A DNA stretch of 64,000 bases from Dulcicalothrix desertica PCC 7102 (lineage in GTDB: Bacteria; Cyanobacteriota; Cyanobacteriia; Cyanobacteriales; Nostocaceae): NCBI RefSeq assembly GCF_003991905.1, contig NZ_RSCL01000033.1:1-64000 (forward strand), written 5' to 3'. This document shows positions 4,979-45,083 of the stretch, in pieces. A program made the translations under genes and the position numbers. Under the pieces are notes generated by a model. That model saw nothing but the letters and a program-made list of their open reading frames with translations. It searched no databases and was not told the DNA's origin. Position 1 is the first letter of the stretch. The number at the start of each line of letters is the position of its first letter.

Positions 4979-5584
4979 TTATTGTGGGATAAGGTCTTCG
5001 AGCTTAAGCTGCAAGTTTGGGAAAAGGCTAGAGGTAATTGTATCTTTCAAGCGATATTGTTGCTTTTGGTATCTACCATTAACTAGCTGGCAGACTGTAA
5101 AAGTAGGTTGTTTTGGGCTGCCAATGAATTCTAAACCACCTAGACCGCGAAAATCTACAATCCAATACTTTAGAATTTCAAGAAAAGCATATTCTTCTAC
5201 TTTTCTAGCGTAATCGTCTTGCCAGTTAGTGCTGACAACTTCGGCAACAAATTTAATTGTGGCGCCATTACAAATTATAGGTTCTCTTTGCCACAGGGGT
5301 TCTTGACTCAGTTTTGCTCTATCTAAAACAATTACGTCAGGACGTAATGCCGTTGCTTCGGCGTATGGTGGTTTAATTAGACAGGTTCTCGGAATTAGCC
5401 ACTTTAAATTCAAACGATAAATCTCGGTATAAACTCTACCAGCAATATTTCCTGAGACATCTTCATGAGGACCCGTCGGTTCCATGTCACGTAGCTCTCC
5501 ATCAATTAGTTCATAACGGGGGTTATCTGCATATTCAATTATAAACTGCTCAAAAGTTAAGAGTTTGGGTGGCGTATAATTCAT
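4979..5584 (-). CDS. Uma2-family (DUF820) putative endonuclease
   Basis: This 201-residue protein has the Uma2/DUF820 layout found in many copies in filamentous cyanobacteria. The landmarks are RYELIDGEL (23-31), LRPDVIVL (80-87), VAEVVS (113-118), a DDYARKVEEY helix (123-132) and YWIVD (140-144). The fold is a PD-(D/E)XK nuclease, but no biological role is established for the family. It is single-gene with its own promoter region. Confidence 0.88.
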   Translation of the reverse strand: MNYTPPKLLTFEQFIIEYADNPRYELIDGELRDMEPTGPHEDVSGNIAGRVYTEIYRLNLKWLIPRTCLIKPPYAEATALRPDVIVLDRAKLSQEPLWQREPIICNGATIKFVAEVVSTNWQDDYARKVEEYAFLEILKYWIVDFRGLGGLEFIGSPKQPTFTVCQLVNGRYQKQQYRLKDTITSSLFPNLQLKLEDLIPQ

Positions 5585-25827: not shown

Positions 25828-25942
25828 GATTAATTCTGTTTGTGGTCTCTAGGTTAAAAACTCTAGATATAATACATGTATATCCATAAAAACATCAGCC
25901 TTATGAAATTAAGGCTTGTTTTTTATCTATGAGGAATGGGGT

Positions 25943-27205
25943 ATGCCGATTAAAAGTATACATGTTTCAAATTTTAAAAGTTTTAGAGATTCTTATATAG
26001 AACTGGGAAAACTTAATATTTTAATTGGCGCCAATGCTTCTGGTAAATCTAATTTTTTACAAATATTGAAATTTTTGAGAGATATCAGAAACTTTGGACT
26101 TGATAATGCAATTTCTTTACAAGGTGGGGTCGAGTATTTAATTAATACTAGGATTAACACATCTCAAGAATTTAAAGTTAATATTGTATTTGATGATAAA
26201 CACGAGAGATTTATAAAAAAAAATAATCAAACGAGTCTTTTAAAAATATTACAAAGCAGTTATGAACTATCTATCCAATTTAGTCCTAATCATGTAGATT
26301 TTGTTATTACAGAAGATAAACTGATACAGAATTGCGAAATATATAATTTTCATGATGAGAGTAGTGAGCAAAAAAATAAAATCGCCAATAGCAAAATAGT
26401 TTTATCCAAAAATCAGAATAAAATTGATATTGATTATCGGTCTGATAATAATTCAAGTACAATCAACAAATTTGATGTTCTGCCAATACATTATTTTGCA
26501 TCGCAAGAATTGAAATCAAATACAGTGCTTTTAGAAAATCCTTTTTTGTCATTATTAATGCCAGAAGATAGCGATACTTTGAAGAATGTATCGATTTACG
26601 ATTTTGATCATAAACTGACAAAAAAAGCAACACCGATTACTGGAAAACTAGAACTTGAAGAAGACGGTACTAATTTACCTATCGTTATTAAAAAGATAAT
26701 TAGAGAGGGTAATAGTAAAAGGAAATTGTTAAACTTGCTCTCAGTAGTACTACCCTTTGTTAAGGATTTGAAAATTGAAGAGTATACAGATAAATCTTTA
26801 ATTTTTCAAATCAAAGAGCAATACTTAAAAAATGATAATAATTATATACCATCATCATTAATATCTGATGGTACAGTCAATATTATAGCTTTGTTAATTG
26901 CATTGTATTTTGAGAATGAACCATTAACGATAATCGAAGAACCAGAAAGAAATATACATCCTTACCTCATCTCTAAAATTATTGAAATGATGAAAGAAGC
27001 ATCGATGAATAAGCAAATTATAGTAACTACTCATAATCCCGAAATGGTTAAATATGCAAATAGAGAAAGTATATTATTAATATCGAGAGATAAACAAGGA
27101 TTCTCTCAAATATCAAGACCTTATGAGCAAGAAGAAATTAAAATATTCTTAGAAAATCAAATTGAGTTTGAGGAATTATATGTAAAAAATTTGCTCAGTA
27201 TTTAG
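25943..27205 (+). CDS. AAA/OLD-type ATPase, putative defence ATPase
   Basis: From the ATG at 25943 the protein is 420 residues. It begins with IKSIHVSNFKSF and the Walker A motif GANASGKSN (29-37), typical of AAA_21/OLD and RecF-like ATPases. It has an ABC-type SDGTVNIIALLIA signature, a Walker B with two acids (TIIEEPERNIHP) and the switch histidine in VTTHNPEMV. It lacks a nuclease domain of its own; the TOPRIM-like protein starting 29 bases downstream could supply it. The gene is conspicuously AT-rich and, apart from one site near its start, free of GGCGCC, which suggests recent acquisition. Confidence 0.82.
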   Translation: MPIKSIHVSNFKSFRDSYIELGKLNILIGANASGKSNFLQILKFLRDIRNFGLDNAISLQGGVEYLINTRINTSQEFKVNIVFDDKHERFIKKNNQTSLLKILQSSYELSIQFSPNHVDFVITEDKLIQNCEIYNFHDESSEQKNKIANSKIVLSKNQNKIDIDYRSDNNSSTINKFDVLPIHYFASQELKSNTVLLENPFLSLLMPEDSDTLKNVSIYDFDHKLTKKATPITGKLELEEDGTNLPIVIKKIIREGNSKRKLLNLLSVVLPFVKDLKIEEYTDKSLIFQIKEQYLKNDNNYIPSSLISDGTVNIIALLIALYFENEPLTIIEEPERNIHPYLISKIIEMMKEASMNKQIIVTTHNPEMVKYANRESILLISRDKQGFSQISRPYEQEEIKIFLENQIEFEELYVKNLLSI

Positions 27206-27234: not shown

Positions 27235-27771
27235 ATGTCAACAAAAAACGGTTTATTCATTTGGGTAGAAGGTTCTGATGATGAGAGGTTTTTCCAAAGA
27301 ATCTTTTGCCCGTTGTTTGAACAACAATACGATTATACAAAAATTATTAAATACTCTGGAGAAAATCCAACTTGGCAGAATAAATTTTTAAAAAGCATAG
27401 TCAGTATGAATGCAAATTATATTTTCACAGCAGATATTGATAGAGCGAGATGTATCTCGACTAAAAAGGATTATATAAAAGCTAAGGTTACTAATATTGA
27501 GATAAGTAATATAGTGGTAGTTATACAAGAGATAGAAAGCTGGTATTTAGCAGGCCTTGATGATGATAGCTGTAAGTCACTAGGTATAAAATTAAAAGAG
27601 AGTAGCACAAATTTAATTACTAAAGAAGATTTTAATCGGCTCATACCTAGCAATTTTAAAGCTTCCAGGATTGATTTTATGATTGAGATATTAAATTTAT
27701 TTAAAATTGATATTGCAAAACAAAGAAACTCTTCTTTAAAATATTTTTGTGATAAGTATTTACAGGAATAA
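27235..27771 (+). CDS. TOPRIM-like putative nuclease partner
   Basis: The 178-residue protein has the acidic pattern of a TOPRIM fold: E12 in IWVEGSDDERFF and the DxD pair D67/D69 in FTADIDRARC. A later VVIQEIESWYLAGLDD segment resembles the EFEALLF region of DUF4276-like proteins. It is probably co-transcribed with the ATPase upstream. Together they form an OLD-like or PARIS-like two-part arrangement, though the small size does not match AriB as I know it. AT-rich codon use is like its partner's. Confidence 0.65.
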   Translation: MSTKNGLFIWVEGSDDERFFQRIFCPLFEQQYDYTKIIKYSGENPTWQNKFLKSIVSMNANYIFTADIDRARCISTKKDYIKAKVTNIEISNIVVVIQEIESWYLAGLDDDSCKSLGIKLKESSTNLITKEDFNRLIPSNFKASRIDFMIEILNLFKIDIAKQRNSSLKYFCDKYLQE

Positions 27772-34621: not shown

Positions 34622-36208
34622 ATGGACGCTTCGACACTTTGGCAGCGATACCAGGAATGGTTATATTACCACGAAGGATTGGGGTTTTACCTCGATATTA
34701 GTCGGATGCGCTTTGATAATGCGTTCGTAGAGGCGTTGCAACCAAAGTTCGAGAAGGCTTTCGCTTCGATGGCGGAGCTTGAAAAGGGCGCCATTGCAAA
34801 CCCCGACGAAGACCGCATGGTTGGACACTACTGGCTGCGAAATCCTGATTTGGCGCCGACTCCCGAACTCACACAAGAAATTGTGAGTTCAATCGAACAA
34901 ATCGAAGTTTTCGCCGAAAAAGTTCACACTGGTGGAATTCATCCTCCCAAAGCTGCACGCTTTACTGATATTATCTCTATCGGTATCGGTGGTTCTGCAC
35001 TTGGTCCCGAATTTATCGCTGAAGCCCTTGCCCCCGATTTTCCTCCTTTAGCAATTCATTTTATCGATAATACAGACCCAACTGGCATCGACAAGATTCT
35101 CACGCATCTACGTAATAAACTTTCTAGTACTTTAGTTTTAGTAATCTCTAAATCTGGTGGTACTCCCGAACCGCGTAACGGCATGTTGGAAGTTAAAAAA
35201 GCTTATGCGGGACAAAATTTAGATTTTGCGAATTATGCCGTTGCTATTACCATGCCAGGTAGTAAGCTAGACGACCAAGCCAAAAACGAAAACTGGCTAA
35301 TGCGCTTTCCAATGTATGATTGGGTTGGTGGACGCACTTCGTCCATGTCTACAGTTGGGTTAGTACCTGCTGCACTTCAAGGCATTGATATTAAAGAAAT
35401 GCTCGAAGGCGCCAAAGAAATGGACGATGCTACACGCATTGCCGATATTAAGAAAAATCCTGCTGCAATGCTAGCTTTAGCATGGTATTACGCAGGTAAC
35501 GGTAAGGGTGAGAAGGATATGGTCGTTCTACCCTATAAAGACAGCTTGCTGCTATTTAGTCGTTACTTGCAGCAACTCGTCATGGAATCTTTAGGAAAAG
35601 AAAAAGACCTTGACGGTAATATAGTACATCAGGGTATTGCTGTATATGGTAATAAAGGCTCTACCGACCAACACGCTTACGTTCAACAGTTACGCGAAGG
35701 GGTGCCAAACTTCTTTCTTACCTTTATTGAAGTATTGAAAGACCGTGAGGGAGCATCTCCTGAACTCGAACCAGGTATTACCTCTGGTGACTACCTCTCT
35801 GGTTTCCTCCAAGGTTCGCGTACTGCATTATACGAAAACCATCGTGACTCAATTACAGTAACAATTCCCGAAGTTAACCCTCGTACTGTCGGCGCCTTAA
35901 TTGCATTATATGACCGAACGGTTGGTTATTATGCAAGTTTGGTAAATATAAATGCTTACCATCAACCAGGTGTAGAAGCAGGTAAAAAAGCTGCGGCAGT
36001 CATATTGGACTTACAGACAAAAGTCATCGACGTATTGCAAAGCGAAAAAGCACCTATGACACTAGCGCAAATTGCTGACAAAGCAGGCGCCAGTGACAAC
36101 GTTGAGTCAATATACATTATTTTACGACACATGTCGGCAAATAATCGCGGTGTAGTTATGCAAGGTAACTTAGGCGAACCCAACAGTTTGACTGTATCTA
36201 TGGGTTGA
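34622..36208 (+). CDS. pgi: Glucose-6-phosphate isomerase
   Basis: This 528-residue enzyme interconverts glucose-6-phosphate and fructose-6-phosphate. The length fits cyanobacterial Pgi. Motifs are [13 protein letters not shown] (about 121-133), the [10 protein letters not shown] sugar-phosphate region, [14 protein letters not shown] (about 175-188), [13 protein letters not shown] and the C-terminal [12 protein letters not shown] with the catalytic histidine. The gene is followed by two hairpins ending in T-runs. Confidence 0.96.
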
Positions 36209-38077: not shown

Positions 38078-38649
38078 TTTAATTAATGGTTTGTATGCAT
38101 TGTTAGATGTGTTGTATTTTGTGGTTGCGGCGCGGTTTAGAGGATGTTTTAAAAGCTTTATTAATGTATAAAATATCATTTGGTAAATATTATTACCACA
38201 GAGACACAGAGGGCACCGATACCGATTTTCATAAAATGATTAACCAGGCTTTATTAGGAATTTATCTAGCTGACCAAAAGGTACAAAGACAAAAAGAAGT
38301 GAAAAAAATGGCAAGGCATCTTTTAAATAAAGGAGGGGCGCCAGCTTACTTTTTCTTTTTTAATGGCAGAATCATGGCTAATTTACGCTCTAAAATGGGG
38401 TAAAATATAATACAACATGTGTGCCCTTTGAGAGTTACTTATCAAGCAAGTATACTGACGTGAGGATAATAATTATTCTTGAGATAAGAAAAATCTCCAT
38501 TTTATAGACTAGTTTAGGCATATCGTTAAATCTGTGTTGTTGGATGCTGGGTTTAATGGACGCTTCCTAAAATTAAAAAATTGTTACTAACTAGTAATAT
38601 AAAAATGACTACAATATATATTGAATACAGTACAAAAGGAAAAATTATT
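38078..38649. other. Repeat-rich spacer with a duplicated gene remnant
   Basis: The spacer holds a TTACCACAGAGACACAGAGG motif whose inverse occurs near 44.80 kb, and a 98-codon frame (38107-38403) that crosses it. The middle of that frame (HKMINQALLGIYLADQKV) looks protein-like, but I cannot place it and do not call it a gene. At 38419-38463 there is a decayed copy of the end of the retropepsin-like gene described separately. Confidence 0.4.
38419..38463 (+). pseudogene. 3' remnant of a retropepsin-like gene
   Basis: Fourteen codons read VCPLRVTYQASILT and then stop, matching the end of the protein at 38964-39329 (LPLSVNYQAGILTLGD) with several substitutions. The DNA is also similar (ATCAAGCAAGTATACTGACG against ATCAAGCAGGTATACTGACG). 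It implies that a second copy of the gene once lay upstream. Confidence 0.65.
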
Positions 38650-38967
38650 ATGACCGAATCAGCACAAAAACCGCGCGCTCGACGTGGCAGAATCTTTCCT
38701 GAAAGAACTATTACACCTGAAGAGCTTGCACGGCAAGAAGCTGAAGGCGAAATTTATCACCAGCGCTGTCTAGCCATTTTTGAGCGCGTGCGTCCTGAAT
38801 TGATAGATAAATACTATGGTTGGTATATTGCAGTAGAGCCAGATAGTGGAGAGTATCTTATAGATCAAGATAAAATGCAAACACATAAGAAAGCACTTGA
38901 AAAATATCCAAATAAAGATCACTTTGTGTTTCGCCTGAATGAAACTGGAGCTACAGGCAGAATATGA
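38650..38967 (+). CDS. Hypothetical partner protein of the retropepsin-like gene
   Basis: From the ATG at 38650, preceded by AAAGGA, the protein has 105 residues. It opens with a basic PRARRGRIFPERTITPEELAR segment, then a helix (YHQRCLAIFERVRPELIDKYY) and a WYIAVEPDSGEYLIDQD strand pair. It overlaps the next gene by ATGA (38964-38967), so the two are translationally coupled. The function is unknown. Such small proteins paired with aspartic-protease-like genes recur in cyanobacteria, and an antitoxin-like or adaptor role is only a guess. Confidence 0.7.
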   Translation: MTESAQKPRARRGRIFPERTITPEELARQEAEGEIYHQRCLAIFERVRPELIDKYYGWYIAVEPDSGEYLIDQDKMQTHKKALEKYPNKDHFVFRLNETGATGRI

Positions 38968-39329
38968 TACACGGTACGTTTGATGATGTGGGGCATCTAT
39001 TTTTTGAAATCGAATTAATTATTGCTAATGATTTGAGTCTGCCTGAGCAAGCCATGTTAGATACTGGCTTTACAGGTTTTTTAGCTATTAATAAACAAGA
39101 TATAGATGGTTTTGAGTGGACTTATGTTGGTCAAGAGCGGATGGTAACAGCACAAGGAATTAAAAGGTTTGAACTTTACTCAGGTAAAATAATGTTAGAT
39201 GAACAAGAATATGAGATTCCAGTATTTGTAGGTAATGGTATTCCTGAAGTATTACTTGGTTCCGAATGGTTAAAAATCTTACCATTGTCTGTCAACTATC
39301 AAGCAGGTATACTGACGCTAGGAGATTAG
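38964..39329 (+). CDS. Clan AA retropepsin-like aspartic protease-fold protein
   Basis: The 121-residue protein has the single active-site loop of a clan AA (retropepsin-like) domain, AMLDTGFTGFLAI (near 30-42), and the later GIPEVLLGSEWLKIL flap/hydrophobic region. Active clan AA enzymes dimerise so that each subunit gives one Asp in DTG. It overlaps its partner upstream by 4 bases, and its 3' end overlaps by 12 bases the convergent nuclease gene on the other strand. A decayed duplicate end lies 0.9 kb upstream. Confidence 0.75.
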   Translation: MIHGTFDDVGHLFFEIELIIANDLSLPEQAMLDTGFTGFLAINKQDIDGFEWTYVGQERMVTAQGIKRFELYSGKIMLDEQEYEIPVFVGNGIPEVLLGSEWLKILPLSVNYQAGILTLGD

Positions 39330-40823
39330 TAAATCACGAAGAAAGTAAAACCTGTCATGGCGCCAGTCTTCGCCTTTAATTCGTCCCAAATAACCTACAA
39401 GTGGTGATGCGAGTTCAACTAAGATTTCGTGTAGTTCTCGTGGCTGAATTTTAATTGATGCTCCAGCGACAAAACCATGTAGCCCATCAACACTTGCACA
39501 TTCGTAGCCCGTATTTTCCAGATATTTTTTGACAAGCTGGACTAGCTGCGCTCTCAGTTTAATATCTTGATTGATTATATCTATATATTTATTAACTTTT
39601 TCGTCAGCTATACCAAATGGCGCCTGCTGCAAACACTCTTTAAGTTCTAACAAATTAATTGAGTTTTTATAATTAGCTTGTAATGCAACTAATTTTTGTA
39701 AAGTTTCTGGTGTTATTACATTCATATCATTTTCAGTTGCTGTTCTTTTTGCGAAGGAATTTAGCTCACCTGCTGCCACAATCAATTTAACCGCGCGTTC
39801 ATACTGCGTTTTACCCAAATGGTTTATACCTATTTTAAGAAGTTGTGCAGGAGTACTATCAGGAACTTTTTCTAATTTAGTTGCTTTGCACTCACCTACT
39901 ACTGGGTATGGATATTCACAGTAAAAGTCCATTCCTCCGGCGCCACCACTTCCTTCAGGATTTAGTTTAGAACCTGTGAAACCAAGTTTTAGCAAGCTTT
40001 TACGAACAAGTTTTTCAAAGCTGTGTCCATCGCTTGAGTTACCTACGGAAGCAATTTTATGTATCCAAGTTACATCTGTGTCGTTGGACGCTGGTTGTAA
40101 TGGGCGCCTCCAACCTAAGAATATTTGAATATCTTGCTGTAATTGCTTTGCAGCAGGGTTAGTAATGAGTGTTAAGGCGCCTTCTAATTCCTCTAATTTC
40201 TGATGTAATGGTGGTTGACGCTTTTCGAGTTGCAGTTTACGGATAGCAAAAGTATTATCATTCAACACTGGGTTTACTTCAGAAGCAGTGAGTGAGTTAG
40301 GTAAACCAATGAATTTTCCTAACTTTTCCTTTTGACCAAGATTAGCAGATACATCTTGAGGTTGAGGTAACTGATAGACACGTAGGTACGCCAAGAAAAT
40401 TTGCTGACGCTGTTGAATTATCGCTTGTAATGCTTCTTTTGCCCAGATAGTTAATCTTGATAAAATATCCAGATTTGCTGTGTGGTCAAGAATTTCACAA
40501 AACTCGCAACGTGCCCATACTTTCACCTGTACTGTTTCATCGACTAATAAAGGAAGTTGTAACTGTTCGGTTTGTGCAACTAAGCTAAGTTGTCGAGGTT
40601 GAAGTAAAACACCCTGGTGAGTTACTACATTATTTGCAACATGTAAAAAACTCGCGCGGTAGTAATTATCATAAGCAAGTGTGTCTATTGGATAAAGAGC
40701 AAACGTTTGTCCGGGACGAAGAAACATTCGAGGTAGAGCGGTAATTAGGCGCCCTTGAATTAACGCTTCGATGTCAGGGGTAGGTAGACACAAAGCAGTA
40801 TTAATTATAATGGAACTGCTCAT
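39318..40823 (-). CDS. PD-(D/E)XK nuclease-domain protein, third gene of a putative system
   Basis: The 501-residue protein has an unassigned N-terminal half (1-240) and a restriction-endonuclease-like core. The core is readable as E270 in GHSFEKLVRKSLLKLGF, D299 in GAGGMDFYCEY and E311-x-K313 in VVGECKAT, a good PD-(D/E)XK arrangement. Residues 340-500 are helical with no recognised domain. Its start overlaps the end of the ATPase gene by ATGA (40820-40823), showing translational coupling. It probably cuts or processes DNA under control of the ATPase; the family is not one I can name. Confidence 0.68.
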   Translation of the reverse strand: MSSSIIINTALCLPTPDIEALIQGRLITALPRMFLRPGQTFALYPIDTLAYDNYYRASFLHVANNVVTHQGVLLQPRQLSLVAQTEQLQLPLLVDETVQVKVWARCEFCEILDHTANLDILSRLTIWAKEALQAIIQQRQQIFLAYLRVYQLPQPQDVSANLGQKEKLGKFIGLPNSLTASEVNPVLNDNTFAIRKLQLEKRQPPLHQKLEELEGALTLITNPAAKQLQQDIQIFLGWRRPLQPASNDTDVTWIHKIASVGNSSDGHSFEKLVRKSLLKLGFTGSKLNPEGSGGAGGMDFYCEYPYPVVGECKATKLEKVPDSTPAQLLKIGINHLGKTQYERAVKLIVAAGELNSFAKRTATENDMNVITPETLQKLVALQANYKNSINLLELKECLQQAPFGIADEKVNKYIDIINQDIKLRAQLVQLVKKYLENTGYECASVDGLHGFVAGASIKIQPRELHEILVELASPLVGYLGRIKGEDWRHDRFYFLRDLLIS

Positions 40824-42700
40824 AAGCCGATTTTCGCCAGTAAATTATCAACCATAACCCCTACATCATCGCTTCCAGTTGGATTTTGCGTTGCTTGAAC
40901 TTCAGGGATAACATCTTCATCAACTAAACCAGTGGGGACTTGTCCTGATGGGTCACTTAATATTTCACGAATTAGGTAATTATCAACTGCAATTCTTTTT
41001 TGGCGGATATAATCAATTACTTGCTCCTCGCTTAACTCATAATCTTCGCGAGCTTTCATGACTAAATGCGCTGCTAAAAGAGGTTTAATATCTTCTGATT
41101 TTAATAATACCCATTCTCCACCAAGTGCTGGCGATAAAAGGTCACTTAAATATTGTTGCGCTCTTGCGGCACCTTTATTGATTTCTTTAGAGCGTATTAA
41201 ACAACCACGGGTTAAATCAAAATCTTCATAGCGAATTAAACGCTTCAATGTAGCTTGAACAATCATACCTCCAGAATCTTGGAGTACAGCAATACCAATT
41301 TTTACCTCTTTCCCGTTTTCTTTACCAACAATTTTTAAGTTTATATAACCTTTGTCGGGAGATTTAGCTTGTATATCTATAATGTCTTCAACTTTTACCT
41401 TCTCAACTACTTCTCCTTTGACTGCACAAAATCCTAAGCGAAGCGCTTGAGCAAGTACTGCATTATTTTCAATGTAGTCTTGGATAGTTGTATCTAGAAC
41501 GGTTAACTGTTCTTGGTAAATTGCTTCTACAGGGTTTGTTGCACCTGGTTTAGTTACATTAAAGTTATCTGCACACCATTGTAAAACTTTTCTAACAATT
41601 GGTCTTTCTTTTCCTAATGCCCGAAGTTTATATTCATCAAAGGGATAAACTGAATGAGGAGGTGTTACTCCCTTTTCCTTATAAAATTCTTCTAACCATT
41701 TAGAAACAAGAGCCACTACATCATCAGAATTTAAATGTTTTAAATCAACGACTTGTTGACCAATTCTATCTATTACTGATTCAGCATAGGGCAATCTTTT
41801 AATTTCATGAACCCAGCTATCCGGATAAACAGAAGTTAATACAACACCTTTCTTAATTTTATCGCATAAATCTTTACCAAGAATAGCAGTTACTTGTTGT
41901 CCGGTCAGTCCAGCATCATTTATGTGGGCACTTTCCATTTCATCAAAACAAACAACTACTGGTTTATAGTCGCTAAGTAAATCGAGAATTTGTCTTACTG
42001 TATTAAATGACTCTACTTCTTGGTTTTTTGAGTTGATATTAGCCAATCCCATTACATCTGCTTTCGACTGTGGAATGTTACTTCCAGAAAGCCAGCGTAC
42101 AGCAAATACTTCATAAGCTGGGTCAGGTGAGAGAGTCCAGATAATTGCTGTCAGAATATCCGGGTTTTCAATATCTGGCTTAATACTGAGTACTTTGTCC
42201 CTTAGAACTTCAGCGACTTTAGGGTTTTTTGCAAACGCACCAGGAAATTGATTTATTAATTGCTGTGGCGTATAGTCTTTTTTATATGCTTCGTTAACTA
42301 AAGCTGTAGCTAATTCTTGCCATTGGCTAACACCTTTACTGCCAATTTGCTTTAAACTATTTGCAAAAGTTCTTAATAATTCACTTTTGATATGATTTAA
42401 ATCATCACATTGATTCATGCAGATAAATAAAGCACTGCCATTATCTTGCAAACTATGACGAATGCGACTAACAACATGACTTTTACCTAAACCTCTTTCT
42501 GCGGTCATGGTAATACCTATGACTCGCCGTTCTCCGCTACGAACTTTTTCTAATGCCTCGTAAACAGCGTCTGAAGCATGGGCATTTAATGATGGAACGT
42601 CAGGAAAACCTTGATGCCAAATATTATGATTTGTAACAACAAATTTACCAGCAAACGGATTGTGATTTTTAATGATATCAATGAGTAAATCGTTAGACAT
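40820..42700 (-). CDS. P-loop ATPase, central gene of a putative system
   Basis: This 626-residue protein has a Walker A of the form AERGLGKSH (67-75) and Walker B VVVCFDE (246-252), with an ORC/Cdc6- or STAND-like AAA+ appearance (a GKDLCDKIKKGVVLTS sensor-like strand near 270). The C-terminal third (about 400-626) contains a beta-rich segment (YINLKIVGKENGKEVKIGIAV) and an acidic tail. No GGCGCC lies within it, unlike its neighbours. It sits between a winged-helix-like gene and a PD-(D/E)XK nuclease gene, suggesting it couples recognition to cleavage. Confidence 0.68.
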   Translation of the reverse strand: MSNDLLIDIIKNHNPFAGKFVVTNHNIWHQGFPDVPSLNAHASDAVYEALEKVRSGERRVIGITMTAERGLGKSHVVSRIRHSLQDNGSALFICMNQCDDLNHIKSELLRTFANSLKQIGSKGVSQWQELATALVNEAYKKDYTPQQLINQFPGAFAKNPKVAEVLRDKVLSIKPDIENPDILTAIIWTLSPDPAYEVFAVRWLSGSNIPQSKADVMGLANINSKNQEVESFNTVRQILDLLSDYKPVVVCFDEMESAHINDAGLTGQQVTAILGKDLCDKIKKGVVLTSVYPDSWVHEIKRLPYAESVIDRIGQQVVDLKHLNSDDVVALVSKWLEEFYKEKGVTPPHSVYPFDEYKLRALGKERPIVRKVLQWCADNFNVTKPGATNPVEAIYQEQLTVLDTTIQDYIENNAVLAQALRLGFCAVKGEVVEKVKVEDIIDIQAKSPDKGYINLKIVGKENGKEVKIGIAVLQDSGGMIVQATLKRLIRYEDFDLTRGCLIRSKEINKGAARAQQYLSDLLSPALGGEWVLLKSEDIKPLLAAHLVMKAREDYELSEEQVIDYIRQKRIAVDNYLIREILSDPSGQVPTGLVDEDVIPEVQATQNPTGSDDVGVMVDNLLAKIGL

Positions 42701-42756
42701 GACTTGCTATACAATAGTGGTAAAATGAATTAACGAGTATTTAAAAAGTTAAATTA

Positions 42757-42781
42757 AAGCTTTTGTTTATTTTAAAAGCTT
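42757..42781 (-). promoter_or_regulatory. AAGCTTTT hairpin at the end of the winged-helix-like gene
   Basis: Perfect 8-bp arms AAGCTTTT and AAAAGCTT enclose a 9-base loop that holds the stop codon of the upstream gene. It lies 57 bases before the ATPase start and could attenuate or stabilise the operon message. There is no clean T-run. Confidence 0.4.
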
Positions 42782-43552
42782 GGCATAACACCGCAAACCG
42801 CTAACTTCCGTTGTTATGGAATCTTCTAATTTTGCTGGGTCGTTATCTGGCAAGCTTCCACCCTGTAGTTGCAAAATATCTTCAGCTTGCATGTCTAACA
42901 TCCATTCATTGAACTGTTCGCGCGTAACTTGTTCACCAATTGTTCTGCGAATACGGTAAATAGGCACTAAATTATCTAGGTTATAATCGCGGTTAAGTTG
43001 CTTATATACTTCTAGGGCAACTGTTTTAAACTTATCGTAAGATTTAATTTCGCCCTTTTTCGCATTGCTGCTACTATTTGTTACTGGCACCGAGGCTGTA
43101 GCTACTATACTATTATTTTCACTAATCCATTTTAGCAAGGCATTTGCCGTCCAAGTAGGAACTGTAGTACCTTCAAACTTAAGAGCAGCACTTTTTAATA
43201 CTTCGCTCAATGCTTCCAAACCCTTCGGCGCCACTAATGAATAGCCATTTTTAGAACTTACTAGCACGCCTTCCTTCTCTAACTGGGTAATTACTTCTTG
43301 ATAATCTGCAACTTTTTTACCCTTGGAAACAATTCGTTTGCTCAATTCGCCGCGCTTCACTTCGCGTGTGGCGCCTCCTAAATCCCATAAACTGAGTAAA
43401 AGGCGAGTTTTGACTTGGTTTTCTGTTGTTTTTAAAGCAATTTTAGCTGGCGCCATAACTATATATGTATATCTATCAGCACCAGTATAGTTTTTAATAT
43501 ATTTTTCAACGGTTGGAAAAATACTGAAAAATTCTTCAGATAATTTTTTCAA
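42767..43552 (-). CDS. Winged-helix-like protein, first gene of a putative system
   Basis: The 261-residue protein contains a segment of winged-helix character (about 50-115): TRLLLSLWDLGGATREVKRGELSKRI, then VADYQEVITQLEKEGVLV and KNGYSLVAPKGLEAL, i.e. helix-helix-helix-wing. A second segment (about 180-250) YRIRRTIGEQVTREQFNEWML...DILQLQGG is similar in style. It is the first gene of the three-gene minus-strand module, 66 bases before the ATPase start. A DNA-binding or regulatory function is likely; the family is not recognised. Confidence 0.62.
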   Translation of the reverse strand: MKKLSEEFFSIFPTVEKYIKNYTGADRYTYIVMAPAKIALKTTENQVKTRLLLSLWDLGGATREVKRGELSKRIVSKGKKVADYQEVITQLEKEGVLVSSKNGYSLVAPKGLEALSEVLKSAALKFEGTTVPTWTANALLKWISENNSIVATASVPVTNSSSNAKKGEIKSYDKFKTVALEVYKQLNRDYNLDNLVPIYRIRRTIGEQVTREQFNEWMLDMQAEDILQLQGGSLPDNDPAKLEDSITTEVSGLRCYAKLLK

Positions 43553-44588: not shown

Positions 44589-45083
44589 TACGCTTACATT
44601 AGTGGTCTGTGTCATTTATTTTGGCAGGTTGGTGCCAATAGTTAGATTCTGAGGTATCGGCGCCAATTTCCAATCTCCCTTAGAGTTGATTTATAAAGTA
44701 AATATTAAACTTCCGTTTGTTGGGTTACGCAAAGCCTCCACCCAACCTACGTTTCAGCTATTTAAGATTTACTTTATAAATGATGTCTGACTTTATTCTC
44801 TGTGTTCTCTGTGTCTCTGTGGTAATAATATTTACTCTAAAATTAAACTTTATTGATTATTTTATGTGTAAGTTTGATATATTTTTATCGAATTCAAACT
44901 GTGTACTGAGAATATAATTACGAATCAAATCTAGTTATAATAGAGGTTTGAGTAATTTGTAAAAAGCAATTAAAATGACAAATTTAGAGAAATAATAGTA
45001 AATTTTATACTTGCACAAGGCAGGATAATAACTGGATAAGGGATATATTTTTTATTAAATGCACTAATCGCGGCAATAAATAA
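44589..45083. other. Intergenic region with nested repeats
   Basis: This stretch contains GGTTGGTGCCAATAG and a GGCGCC, the inverted-repeat element at 44689-44781, and a CTCTGTGTTCTCTGTGTCTC run whose inverse is seen near 38.2 kb. It ends in about 200 AT-rich bases which probably hold the promoter of the acyl-CoA dehydrogenase gene. No gene is visible. Confidence 0.5.
44689..44781. repeat. 93-bp element with perfect 15-bp inverted ends
   Basis: ATTTATAAAGTAAAT at the left is the exact reverse complement of ATTTACTTTATAAAT at the right. The interior carries a GTTGGGTTACGCAAAGCCTC piece and a CCACCCAACCTACG piece of the GTAGGTTGGG family. I see no clear target duplication, so mobility is uncertain. 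Confidence 0.6.

Follow-up and report, generated by a model that had tools for sequence, protein, structure and literature searches.

A three-gene module on the Dulcicalothrix desertica chromosome

The first 64,000 nucleotides of contig NZ_RSCL01000033.1 of the cyanobacterium Dulcicalothrix desertica PCC 7102 (hereinafter, the window; the host genome comprises 11.4 Mb) contain three genes that follow one another on the minus strand and encode, in this order, a winged-helix (WH) protein, an ATPase, and a nuclease. This module is probably a chromosomal, ATP-dependent, restriction-like defense system, most likely a modification-sensing one, of a predicted class that combines an Orc/Cdc6-type ATPase, a fusion of an ASCH domain with a restriction endonuclease (REase), and a winged helix-turn-helix (wHTH) protein; we infer the binding, loading, reading, and cutting of DNA, as well as defense itself. 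Alleles of the module have been replaced between conserved flanks at one chromosomal spot, and the catalytic domains of the nuclease form two types whose distribution disagrees with the ATPase tree, whereas the DUF1802 domain of the same protein agrees with it. The parts of the module are as follows.

42767..43456, minus strand: WH gene, 229 amino acids (aa); two winged-helix-like domains, a likely DNA-binding recognizer judging by the sequence and a profile match
40820..42700, minus strand: ATPase gene, 626 aa; Orc/Cdc6-type AAA+ domain and a C-terminal alpha/beta domain
39318..40823, minus strand: nuclease gene, 501 aa; DUF1802, PD-(D/E)XK domain, and a C-terminal helical region
40236..40796, minus strand: DUF1802 domain of the nuclease, putatively a reader of modified bases (PF08819 match in its own genome)
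39579..40091, minus strand: exchangeable catalytic cassette, nuclease residues ~245-415, containing E270, D299, E311, and K313
40258..40260, minus strand: approximate break (nuclease residue ~189) separating the nuclease end that is shared with the relatives L046 and L047 from the DUF1802-ATPase-WH part that is replaced in them

An earlier note, made from the sequence of the window alone, had placed the three genes at 39318-43552, with an overlap between the ATPase and nuclease genes; three minus-strand open reading frames (ORFs) were recovered there, at 42767-43552, 40820-42700, and 39318-40823, and the ATPase and nuclease ORFs indeed share 4 bp. The listed WH ORF opens with a TTG start at 43552, but the gene more likely spans 42767-43456 because the orthologous ORF in a congeneric locus (L032) has its first start at Met33 of the window protein.

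Screening a single genome for each species of bacteria and archaea yielded 209 relatives, of which the best 80, all cyanobacterial by title, were analyzed. In 76 of these 80 loci, the ATPase is preceded by the WH gene and followed by the nuclease gene, within at most 1.5 kb and on one strand; among the remaining four, L192 and L199 end at a contig edge, and L152 and L159 (Symploca) contain the ATPase alone. The co-occurrence of the trio and the ratios of nonsynonymous to synonymous substitution rates (dN/dS), 0.10-0.17 against two relatives, indicate that the unit is more than a chance arrangement. The earlier proposal that a recognizer, a motor, and a nuclease form one module is supported.

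Domain architecture

The Pfam search identified DUF1802 in the nuclease (E 6.8e-30), along with Mrr_cat slightly under the cut-off (E 6.8e-4), and weak AAA_16/KAP matches in the ATPase; there was no firm Pfam match for the WH protein, and no NCBIfam match above the cut-off for any of the three window proteins. An Sll1717-type ATPase model of NCBIfam was rejected (20.9 bits vs the cut-off of 75), and a sequence search of solved structures returned no meaningful match for the ATPase or the nuclease. In the numbering of the listed ORF, the WH domains span residues ~46-128 and ~168-260. The catalytic motifs pointed out in the earlier note are conserved across the family: K73 of the Walker A motif (AERGLGKS) is present in 64 of 64 ATPases and D253 of the Walker B motif in 63, and each of the nuclease residues E270, D299, E311, and K313 is found in 62 of 64 nucleases. 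Two loci encode full-length second nucleases (L164:10942-12390 and L168:9428-10873) in which all four catalytic residues are changed, downstream of an intact nuclease.

The earlier note had also suggested structural modeling; AlphaFold2 models were built for the ATPase and the nuclease, and the Foldseek search ranked Cdc6 first for the ATPase and gave weak matches to MspJI and ASCH for the nuclease. For the ATPase (predicted local distance difference test score (pLDDT) 89, predicted template modeling score (pTM) 0.83), the best match was Cdc6 (1fnn, E 2.4e-4, the sole match below 0.001), followed by Orc proteins and, lower down, FtsH, RFC, and NLR proteins, with EcoT38I and MspJI at E 0.012. 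The model contains alpha/beta elements at residues ~435-532 followed by helices, and because of the EcoT38I and MspJI matches, which were obtained with the whole protein as the query, the C-terminal part of the ATPase may be an inactive REase-like fold. For the nuclease (pLDDT 86, pTM 0.61), the top match was MspJI (E 2.7e-3, probability 0.91), followed mostly by ASCH structures, including ZmASCH and TRIP4 (probability 0.84-1.00, E 0.011-0.092), and further by AspBHI (E 0.048, probability 0.33) and Fur-like winged helices. These weak structural matches point to a putative ASCH/PUA-like fold of DUF1802, to which sequence profiles add no link, and an hhalign comparison joins the N-terminus of the nuclease to the standalone DUF1802 proteins (probability 99.0). 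In one contig (G464:C62, matches at 1582-1929 and 2138-2650; loci L207/L222), a standalone ASCH gene lies no more than ~200 bp from a standalone DUF1802 gene. Upstream of the module in L146 (3723-4703) and L147 (1362-2345), there is an extra gene in which the N-terminal WH domain lies behind a long lysine/alanine-rich stretch that, by eye, resembles histone H1.

Likely membership in a predicted class of defense systems

Operons of Orc/Cdc6, ASCH-REase, and DndG-like wHTH proteins are predicted in a single clause of PMC10853773 (NAR 2024) to counter invaders, without being given a name, and the class of the system is therefore not new; our Foldseek fold assignments preceded the finding of that paper. 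The window module is likely a member of this class, a putative family identity judged from the stated domains: there are three proteins with apparently the domain make-up stated for the class, and the ATPase belongs to the Orc/Cdc6-clade AAA+ proteins related to the HerA/FtsK-coupled ones (Foldseek Cdc6 match, E 2.4e-4; hhalign probability 99.8). For the REase-ASCH fusion, Mrr_cat and DUF1802 are seen, with the weak ASCH matches described above and an hhalign probability of 0.1 against a set of four ASCH sequences; for the inactive REase fold placed in the ATPase between the AAA+ core and a C-terminal wHTH domain, the possible counterparts are the alpha/beta elements at ~435-532 and the weak EcoT38I/MspJI matches. 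The wHTH protein of the predicted class is triple, whereas the two WH domains of the window protein align, at the level of sequence profiles, with the last two thirds only of the WH protein of a sister system (see below). The main text of PMC10853773 does not contain the string 'cyanobacter'.

The earlier note did not recognize the module as a named defense system, and this assessment holds: no PADLOC family matched the three window proteins at E<=0.001 (none fell below E 0.006), no PADLOC model was found for the WH-ATPase-nuclease module, and the class is predicted but unnamed in the part of PMC10853773 used here. The weak matches of DpdD to the nuclease (E 0.0098) and PDC-S04 to the WH protein (E 0.0064), as well as CARF-type and PD-Lambda-2 matches in one to four family members (best E 1.6e-5), were taken as chance.

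The SspFGH and DndFGH systems (PMC8092258 and PMC10853773, in the parts used here) likewise comprise three genes, one of them for a P-loop protein and another for a translocase or nuclease; however, their third protein is of the HerA/FtsK type (SspH/DndH), whereas the window unit has none and its third gene encodes the DUF1802-nuclease. PADLOC gave no Ssp or Dnd match for the module. The modification-dependent endonucleases MspJI and AspBHI, which match weakly in Foldseek, resemble the module in joining a reader and a PD-(D/E)XK domain in one protein. Unlike the window module, these enzymes are not known to need an ATPase. McrBC type IV restriction combines an AAA+ motor with a PD-(D/E)XK nuclease, as the module does; the difference is that the window ATPase is Orc/Cdc6-like, and no McrB or McrC family is among the Pfam matches at E<=1.

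Replacement of module alleles at one chromosomal spot

Comparison of congeneric genomes shows that module alleles were replaced between conserved flanks at one chromosomal spot. The genes that flank the module in genome G004 (locus L047) share 94-98% identity with those of the window, whereas the WH protein, the ATPase, and the nuclease are only 55, 40, and 69% identical, respectively; the two small genes between the module and the flank are at 76 and 56%. Close similarity at the DNA level extends to base 40258 of the window, which corresponds to nuclease residue ~189 in the last part of DUF1802, and restarts at 44695; in between, there are only two matches, of 145 and 549 bases, at 67-71%. 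The catalytic and C-terminal parts of the L047 nuclease are 91% identical to those of the window. An equal replacement, with flanks 91-99% identical, is seen in G002 (L046), where a truncated nuclease, 88% identical to that of the window, persists beside the new module. Genomes G005 and G006 both have the module of the window (87-94%) but only one of its flanks.

Two types of catalytic domain

Comparison of module parts started from 80 triples in 80 loci, of which length filtering retained 73 (70 loci) and removed 7; adding the window, L046, and L047 brings the set to 76 modules. The catalytic domains in this set fall into two types of 44 and 32 members, the window belonging to the latter, with 65% identity within a type and 43% between the types. 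Modules of one catalytic type are hardly more or less similar to each other than to modules of the other type in the ATPase (0.512 within vs 0.517 between types), DUF1802 (0.514 vs 0.513), and the C-terminal WH part (WH-C; 0.694 vs 0.691); for the parts adjoining the cassette, there is a slight difference, 0.534 vs 0.492 (linker) and 0.551 vs 0.505 (C-terminal part).

When mapped onto the ATPase tree, the catalytic type requires 23 changes against a mean of 24.9 for shuffled labels (70 of 300 shuffles at or below), that is, it does not follow the tree, whereas DUF1802 of the same protein does, with 6 changes vs 25.1 (0/300). WH-C (7 vs 23.2), the N-terminal WH part (WH-N; 11 vs 19.4), and the linker (7 vs 13.9) require fewer changes than any of the shuffles (0/300 in all three cases), and the nuclease C-terminal part requires 19 changes vs 24.7 (1/300); in these comparisons, the groupings other than the catalytic types contrast the largest cluster with the rest, and the trees are quick ones built without a mixture model. 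The isomerase tree for the 32 modules linked to a glucose-6-phosphate isomerase gene gives 8 changes vs 9.8 shuffled (80/500) for the catalytic type, 6 vs 10.4 (2/500) for the ATPase, and 5 vs 10.3 (0/500) for DUF1802. Pairwise similarities co-vary at 0.70-0.75 between DUF1802 and the ATPase parts and at 0.76-0.78 between WH-C and the ATPase parts, compared with only 0.07-0.12 between the catalytic domain and the ATPase or WH parts. Because of this co-variation, unlike that of the catalytic domain, WH-C, the ATPase, and DUF1802 are likely to form a recognition unit.

The borders of the exchange are apparent in recent pairs. In 20-residue blocks, the nucleases of L146/L147 and L175/L176 are 66-100% identical up to residue 240, save one nearly all-gap block, and 20-55% identical from 261 to ~420, with identity rising again thereafter; L175/L176 differ mainly in the catalytic domain, and L146/L147 differ also in WH-N and the nuclease C-terminus. 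The tandem modules of L148, L153, and L201 have one type each, and by eye so do those of L038, numbers that are too small to weigh.

A tentative interpretation, which we regard as possible although less than probable, is that of a two-layer immune locus, in which the recognition unit (WH-C, ATPase, and DUF1802) would be replaced as a block and the two-type cassette would be swapped at domain borders, nearly unlinked from that unit, with phage inhibitors balancing both types; the second nucleases of two genomes, in which all catalytic residues are lost, might then be decoys or structural partners. In a limited literature search, we found no earlier report of the cassette exchange, and the passages of PMC10853773 used here do not mention it. 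Compared with the published prediction, the allele replacement at one spot and the two-type catalytic cassette that does not track the ATPase tree appear to be new. With the natural pairs L175/L176 and L146/L147, it can be tested directly if selection by phages or plasmids acts on the cutting domain rather than on recognition.

Proposed function and alternative explanations

Under the restriction-like defense scenario, the WH and Orc/Cdc6-type AAA+ proteins would assemble on invading DNA with ATP, the ASCH-like DUF1802 domain of the nuclease would sense the base or its modification status, and the PD-(D/E)XK domain would cut once the ATPase and the reader agree. The target would be foreign DNA that carries modifications (type IV-like) or some other mark, the most likely choice because no modification enzyme is seen traveling with the module: by eye, no methylase was recognized among the 14 most frequent neighbor families in the 80 loci, which is consistent with modification-dependent restriction but goes no further. 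WH-C, the ATPase, and DUF1802 would mostly be co-inherited as the recognition unit, and the catalytic domain would be interchangeable, its two types being perhaps maintained by phage inhibitors.

Several observations weigh against this scenario. The nuclease matches in Foldseek all have E of 0.001 or more, with query-length template modeling (TM) scores of at most 0.2 and mostly large root-mean-square deviations, and hhalign found no match between DUF1802 (14 sequences) and the tiny, four-sequence ASCH set; furthermore, standalone DUF1802 is a common small protein in cyanobacteria, so the domain need not imply defense. The recognition unit is not strict, as in L183 (Calothrix NIES-4105) DUF1802, 78% identical to that of the window, stays with the nuclease while the ATPase differs (parts 43-51% identical). 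Within the 32-member type, catalytic similarity correlates with that of WH-N (0.59), DUF1802 (0.50), and the linker (0.65); within the 44-member type, the correlations are 0.14-0.24, and 0.44 with the C-terminal part. To these can be added the lone Symploca ATPases (2/80 loci) and the broken module copies in L139, L162, L184, and L052. The earlier note named defense-island enrichment as a check and considered plasmid processing; the data support neither. The most frequent neighbors in the 80 loci look housekeeping, with glucose-6-phosphate isomerase in 34, and the next families (29, 24, and 22 loci; by eye, MutM-like, unknown, and malate-dehydrogenase-like) are not defense-like; the nuclease was found neither on plasmids nor in IMG/VR, both of which were searched, and the ATPase query retrieved from plasmids one distant relative (23% identity). 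Such neighbors, together with the lack of plasmid and viral matches, speak against a typical defense island, which is not evident here.

The Orc/Cdc6-type ATPase and the WH protein point to replication-like loading and could also belong to a restriction-like defense system that senses the structure of DNA or its state of replication (forks, plasmids, DNA in transfer), with DUF1802 serving only for DNA binding or assembly. The lack of a sequence-profile link between DUF1802 and ASCH and the FtsK-like protein of the sister system would fit this possibility; however, the top Foldseek ranks for the nuclease go, if weakly, to MspJI, which is modification-dependent, and to many ASCH domains, and we consider structure sensing rather unlikely. 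The recurrent spot near the isomerase gene, the lack of plasmid matches, and purifying selection might instead suggest a housekeeping repair or recombination module. Yet, a strong nuclease match occurs in only 55 of 386 cyanobacterial genomes, divergent alleles sit between flanks that are 94-98% identical, there are tandem extra modules and relics, and the catalytic types do not follow the ATPase, all of which makes a housekeeping role improbable.

An RNA-targeting nuclease, in an abortive-infection or regulatory system, would be in line with the wide occurrence of standalone DUF1802 and with a report of an ASCH protein as a ribonuclease (PMC5615036, in the part used here), but the Mrr-like PD-(D/E)XK core and the Orc/Cdc6-type partner suit DNA, leaving this explanation little probability. 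Least credible, indeed hardly so, is a transposon remnant or passenger with a TnsABC-like nuclease and AAA+ regulator: Orc/Cdc6-clade ATPases are present in Tn7 and Mu (PMC10853773, in the part used here), but by eye no transposase was recognized among the 14 most frequent neighbor families of the 80 loci, a survey in which transposon ends were not searched for.

Distribution in cyanobacteria

Under the restriction-like defense reading, the predicted class gains a well-bounded family in strain-collection hosts. Among the best 80 of the 209 relatives, the closest named ones are Calothrix strain HK-06 and a Calothrix metagenome-assembled genome (ATPase 89% identical in each), and the module is present, among others, in Fischerella PCC 9431, Chlorogloeopsis PCC 6912, and Scytonema NIES-4073. 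All 20 close relatives (ATPase identity at least 38%, one per genome, from 41 genomes) carry the three genes, with duplications or splits in L038, L039, L042, and L046; the close copy in L052 (G018) consists of the WH gene and two ATPase pieces, with no nuclease match within 11 kb. A short nuclease or ATPase is found in 6 of the 80 loci, in part due to contig or locus ends.

At 1e-10, the nuclease model had matches in 66 of the 386 cyanobacterial genomes, of which the 55 with strong matches were kept and 11 with DUF1802-alone or fragment matches were dropped; the ATPase model at 1e-30 matched 58, of which 57 were kept and G335 was dropped (E 8e-39, sister-like). Both proteins are encoded in 54 genomes, and in 54 of the 55 strong-nuclease genomes, the ATPase lies on the same contig and strand within 1.5 kb; in the single exception, the start lies at base 124 of the contig. 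Three genomes have the ATPase without a strong nuclease: G162, in which a fragment of the nuclease is left, and G098 and G325, whose ATPases are, judging by size, probably of the L051 type. Split ATPases also occur among these genomes, as in G133 and G309.

An FtsK-type sister system

More distant ATPases (20-25% identical) in loci L053-L064 adjoin a WH gene encoding ~280 aa and, in 10 of the 12 loci (all but L053 and L061), a gene for a large protein of one BLAST cluster. In the three large proteins searched against Pfam (L055, L057, and L063), we identified 3'-5' exonuclease, FtsK_alpha, and FtsK domains, with an extra PDDEXK_1 domain in L057 and L063 and a kinase domain in L055; the third protein of L063 matches the PADLOC models SspH and mad8. 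In L055 (10508-13873), a Ser/Thr kinase takes the place of PDDEXK_1, and PADLOC matches SspH, PD-T4-6, and mad6. At the level of sequence profiles, the common ancestry of the module and the FtsK-type system is shown for the ATPase (probability 99.8, E 9.6e-29, 536 columns) and for WH (probability 97.3, E 2.6e-11, 168 columns), the window-type WH profile covering two domains in the last two thirds of the sister WH. These loci correspond to the Orc/Cdc6, HerA/FtsK, and 3'-5' exonuclease systems of PMC10853773 (in the part used here), with a homologous ATPase and WH and the order WH-ATPase-effector; the difference lies in the effector, which is an exonuclease-FtsK protein with PDDEXK or kinase in the sister systems and DUF1802-Mrr in the window module. 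The predicted class is thus paired with an FtsK-based sister having two of three parts in common. A third relative of the ATPase, ~30% identical, occurs in L051:7330-9973 (probably also in G098, G325, and G235, by size); the nuclease is absent there, and the next gene downstream encodes a von Willebrand factor A protein.

Neighboring genes and GGCGCC sites

Two further features mark the surroundings of the module.

34622..36208, plus strand: glucose-6-phosphate isomerase gene, marker of the chromosomal spot (Pfam PGI, E 4e-58)
38581..39329, plus strand: convergent pair of small genes encoding a 128-aa protein of no assigned family and a 121-aa retropepsin-like protein (by eye; weak Pfam match)

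The convergent pair lies beyond the nuclease in 22 of the 80 loci, an association only, and occurs twice in L038; it is possibly an accessory or toxin-antitoxin-like pair.

The earlier note described surroundings rich in accessory genes, which is borne out in part: the recurrent neighbors are housekeeping-like, but 12 kb from the module there is a low-GC (0.27-0.31) gene for an OLD-like ATPase (25916-27205) that matches the HEC-01A (E 1.3e-48) and PDC-M07A (E 6.6e-33) models and accordingly counts as accessory. The HEC-01A, HEC-01B, and PDC-M07A matches all fall on this gene; all 14 control genomes likewise have matches to the HEC-01A and PDC-M07A models, and 12 of them to HEC-01B. A 178-aa ORF (27235-27771) follows, so a separate defense pair is possible. 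Altogether, 94 PADLOC families had matches at E<=1e-5 among 46 ORFs of the window; two ABC-transporter-like ORFs and a WD40 protein explain some of these matches (10 of the 46 ORFs were traced). PDC-S03, matched at 4982-5584, has 36 matches in the same genome.

As stated in the earlier note, the ATPase gene is free of GGCGCC, containing none of the 117 sites in the window; yet, the nuclease gene holds six and the WH gene three. The 117 sites compare with 5.1 expected (23-fold over-representation), and the HIP1 octamer GCGATCGC, usual in cyanobacteria, occurs in the window once. The window and five congeneric loci (L031, L032, L038, L046, and L047) have 1.1-1.8 GGCGCC per kb and almost no HIP1, whereas L033 and L034, from other genera, contain HIP1 and no GGCGCC; GGCGCC seems to have taken the place of HIP1 as the iterated palindrome in this lineage. 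In the congeneric set, there are 3 sites in seven ATPase genes, 34 in seven nuclease genes, and 18 in seven WH genes, a distribution consistent with the ATPase part having been brought in repeatedly between ends that stayed resident, but one that serves as a side argument only because the compared genes are not independent.

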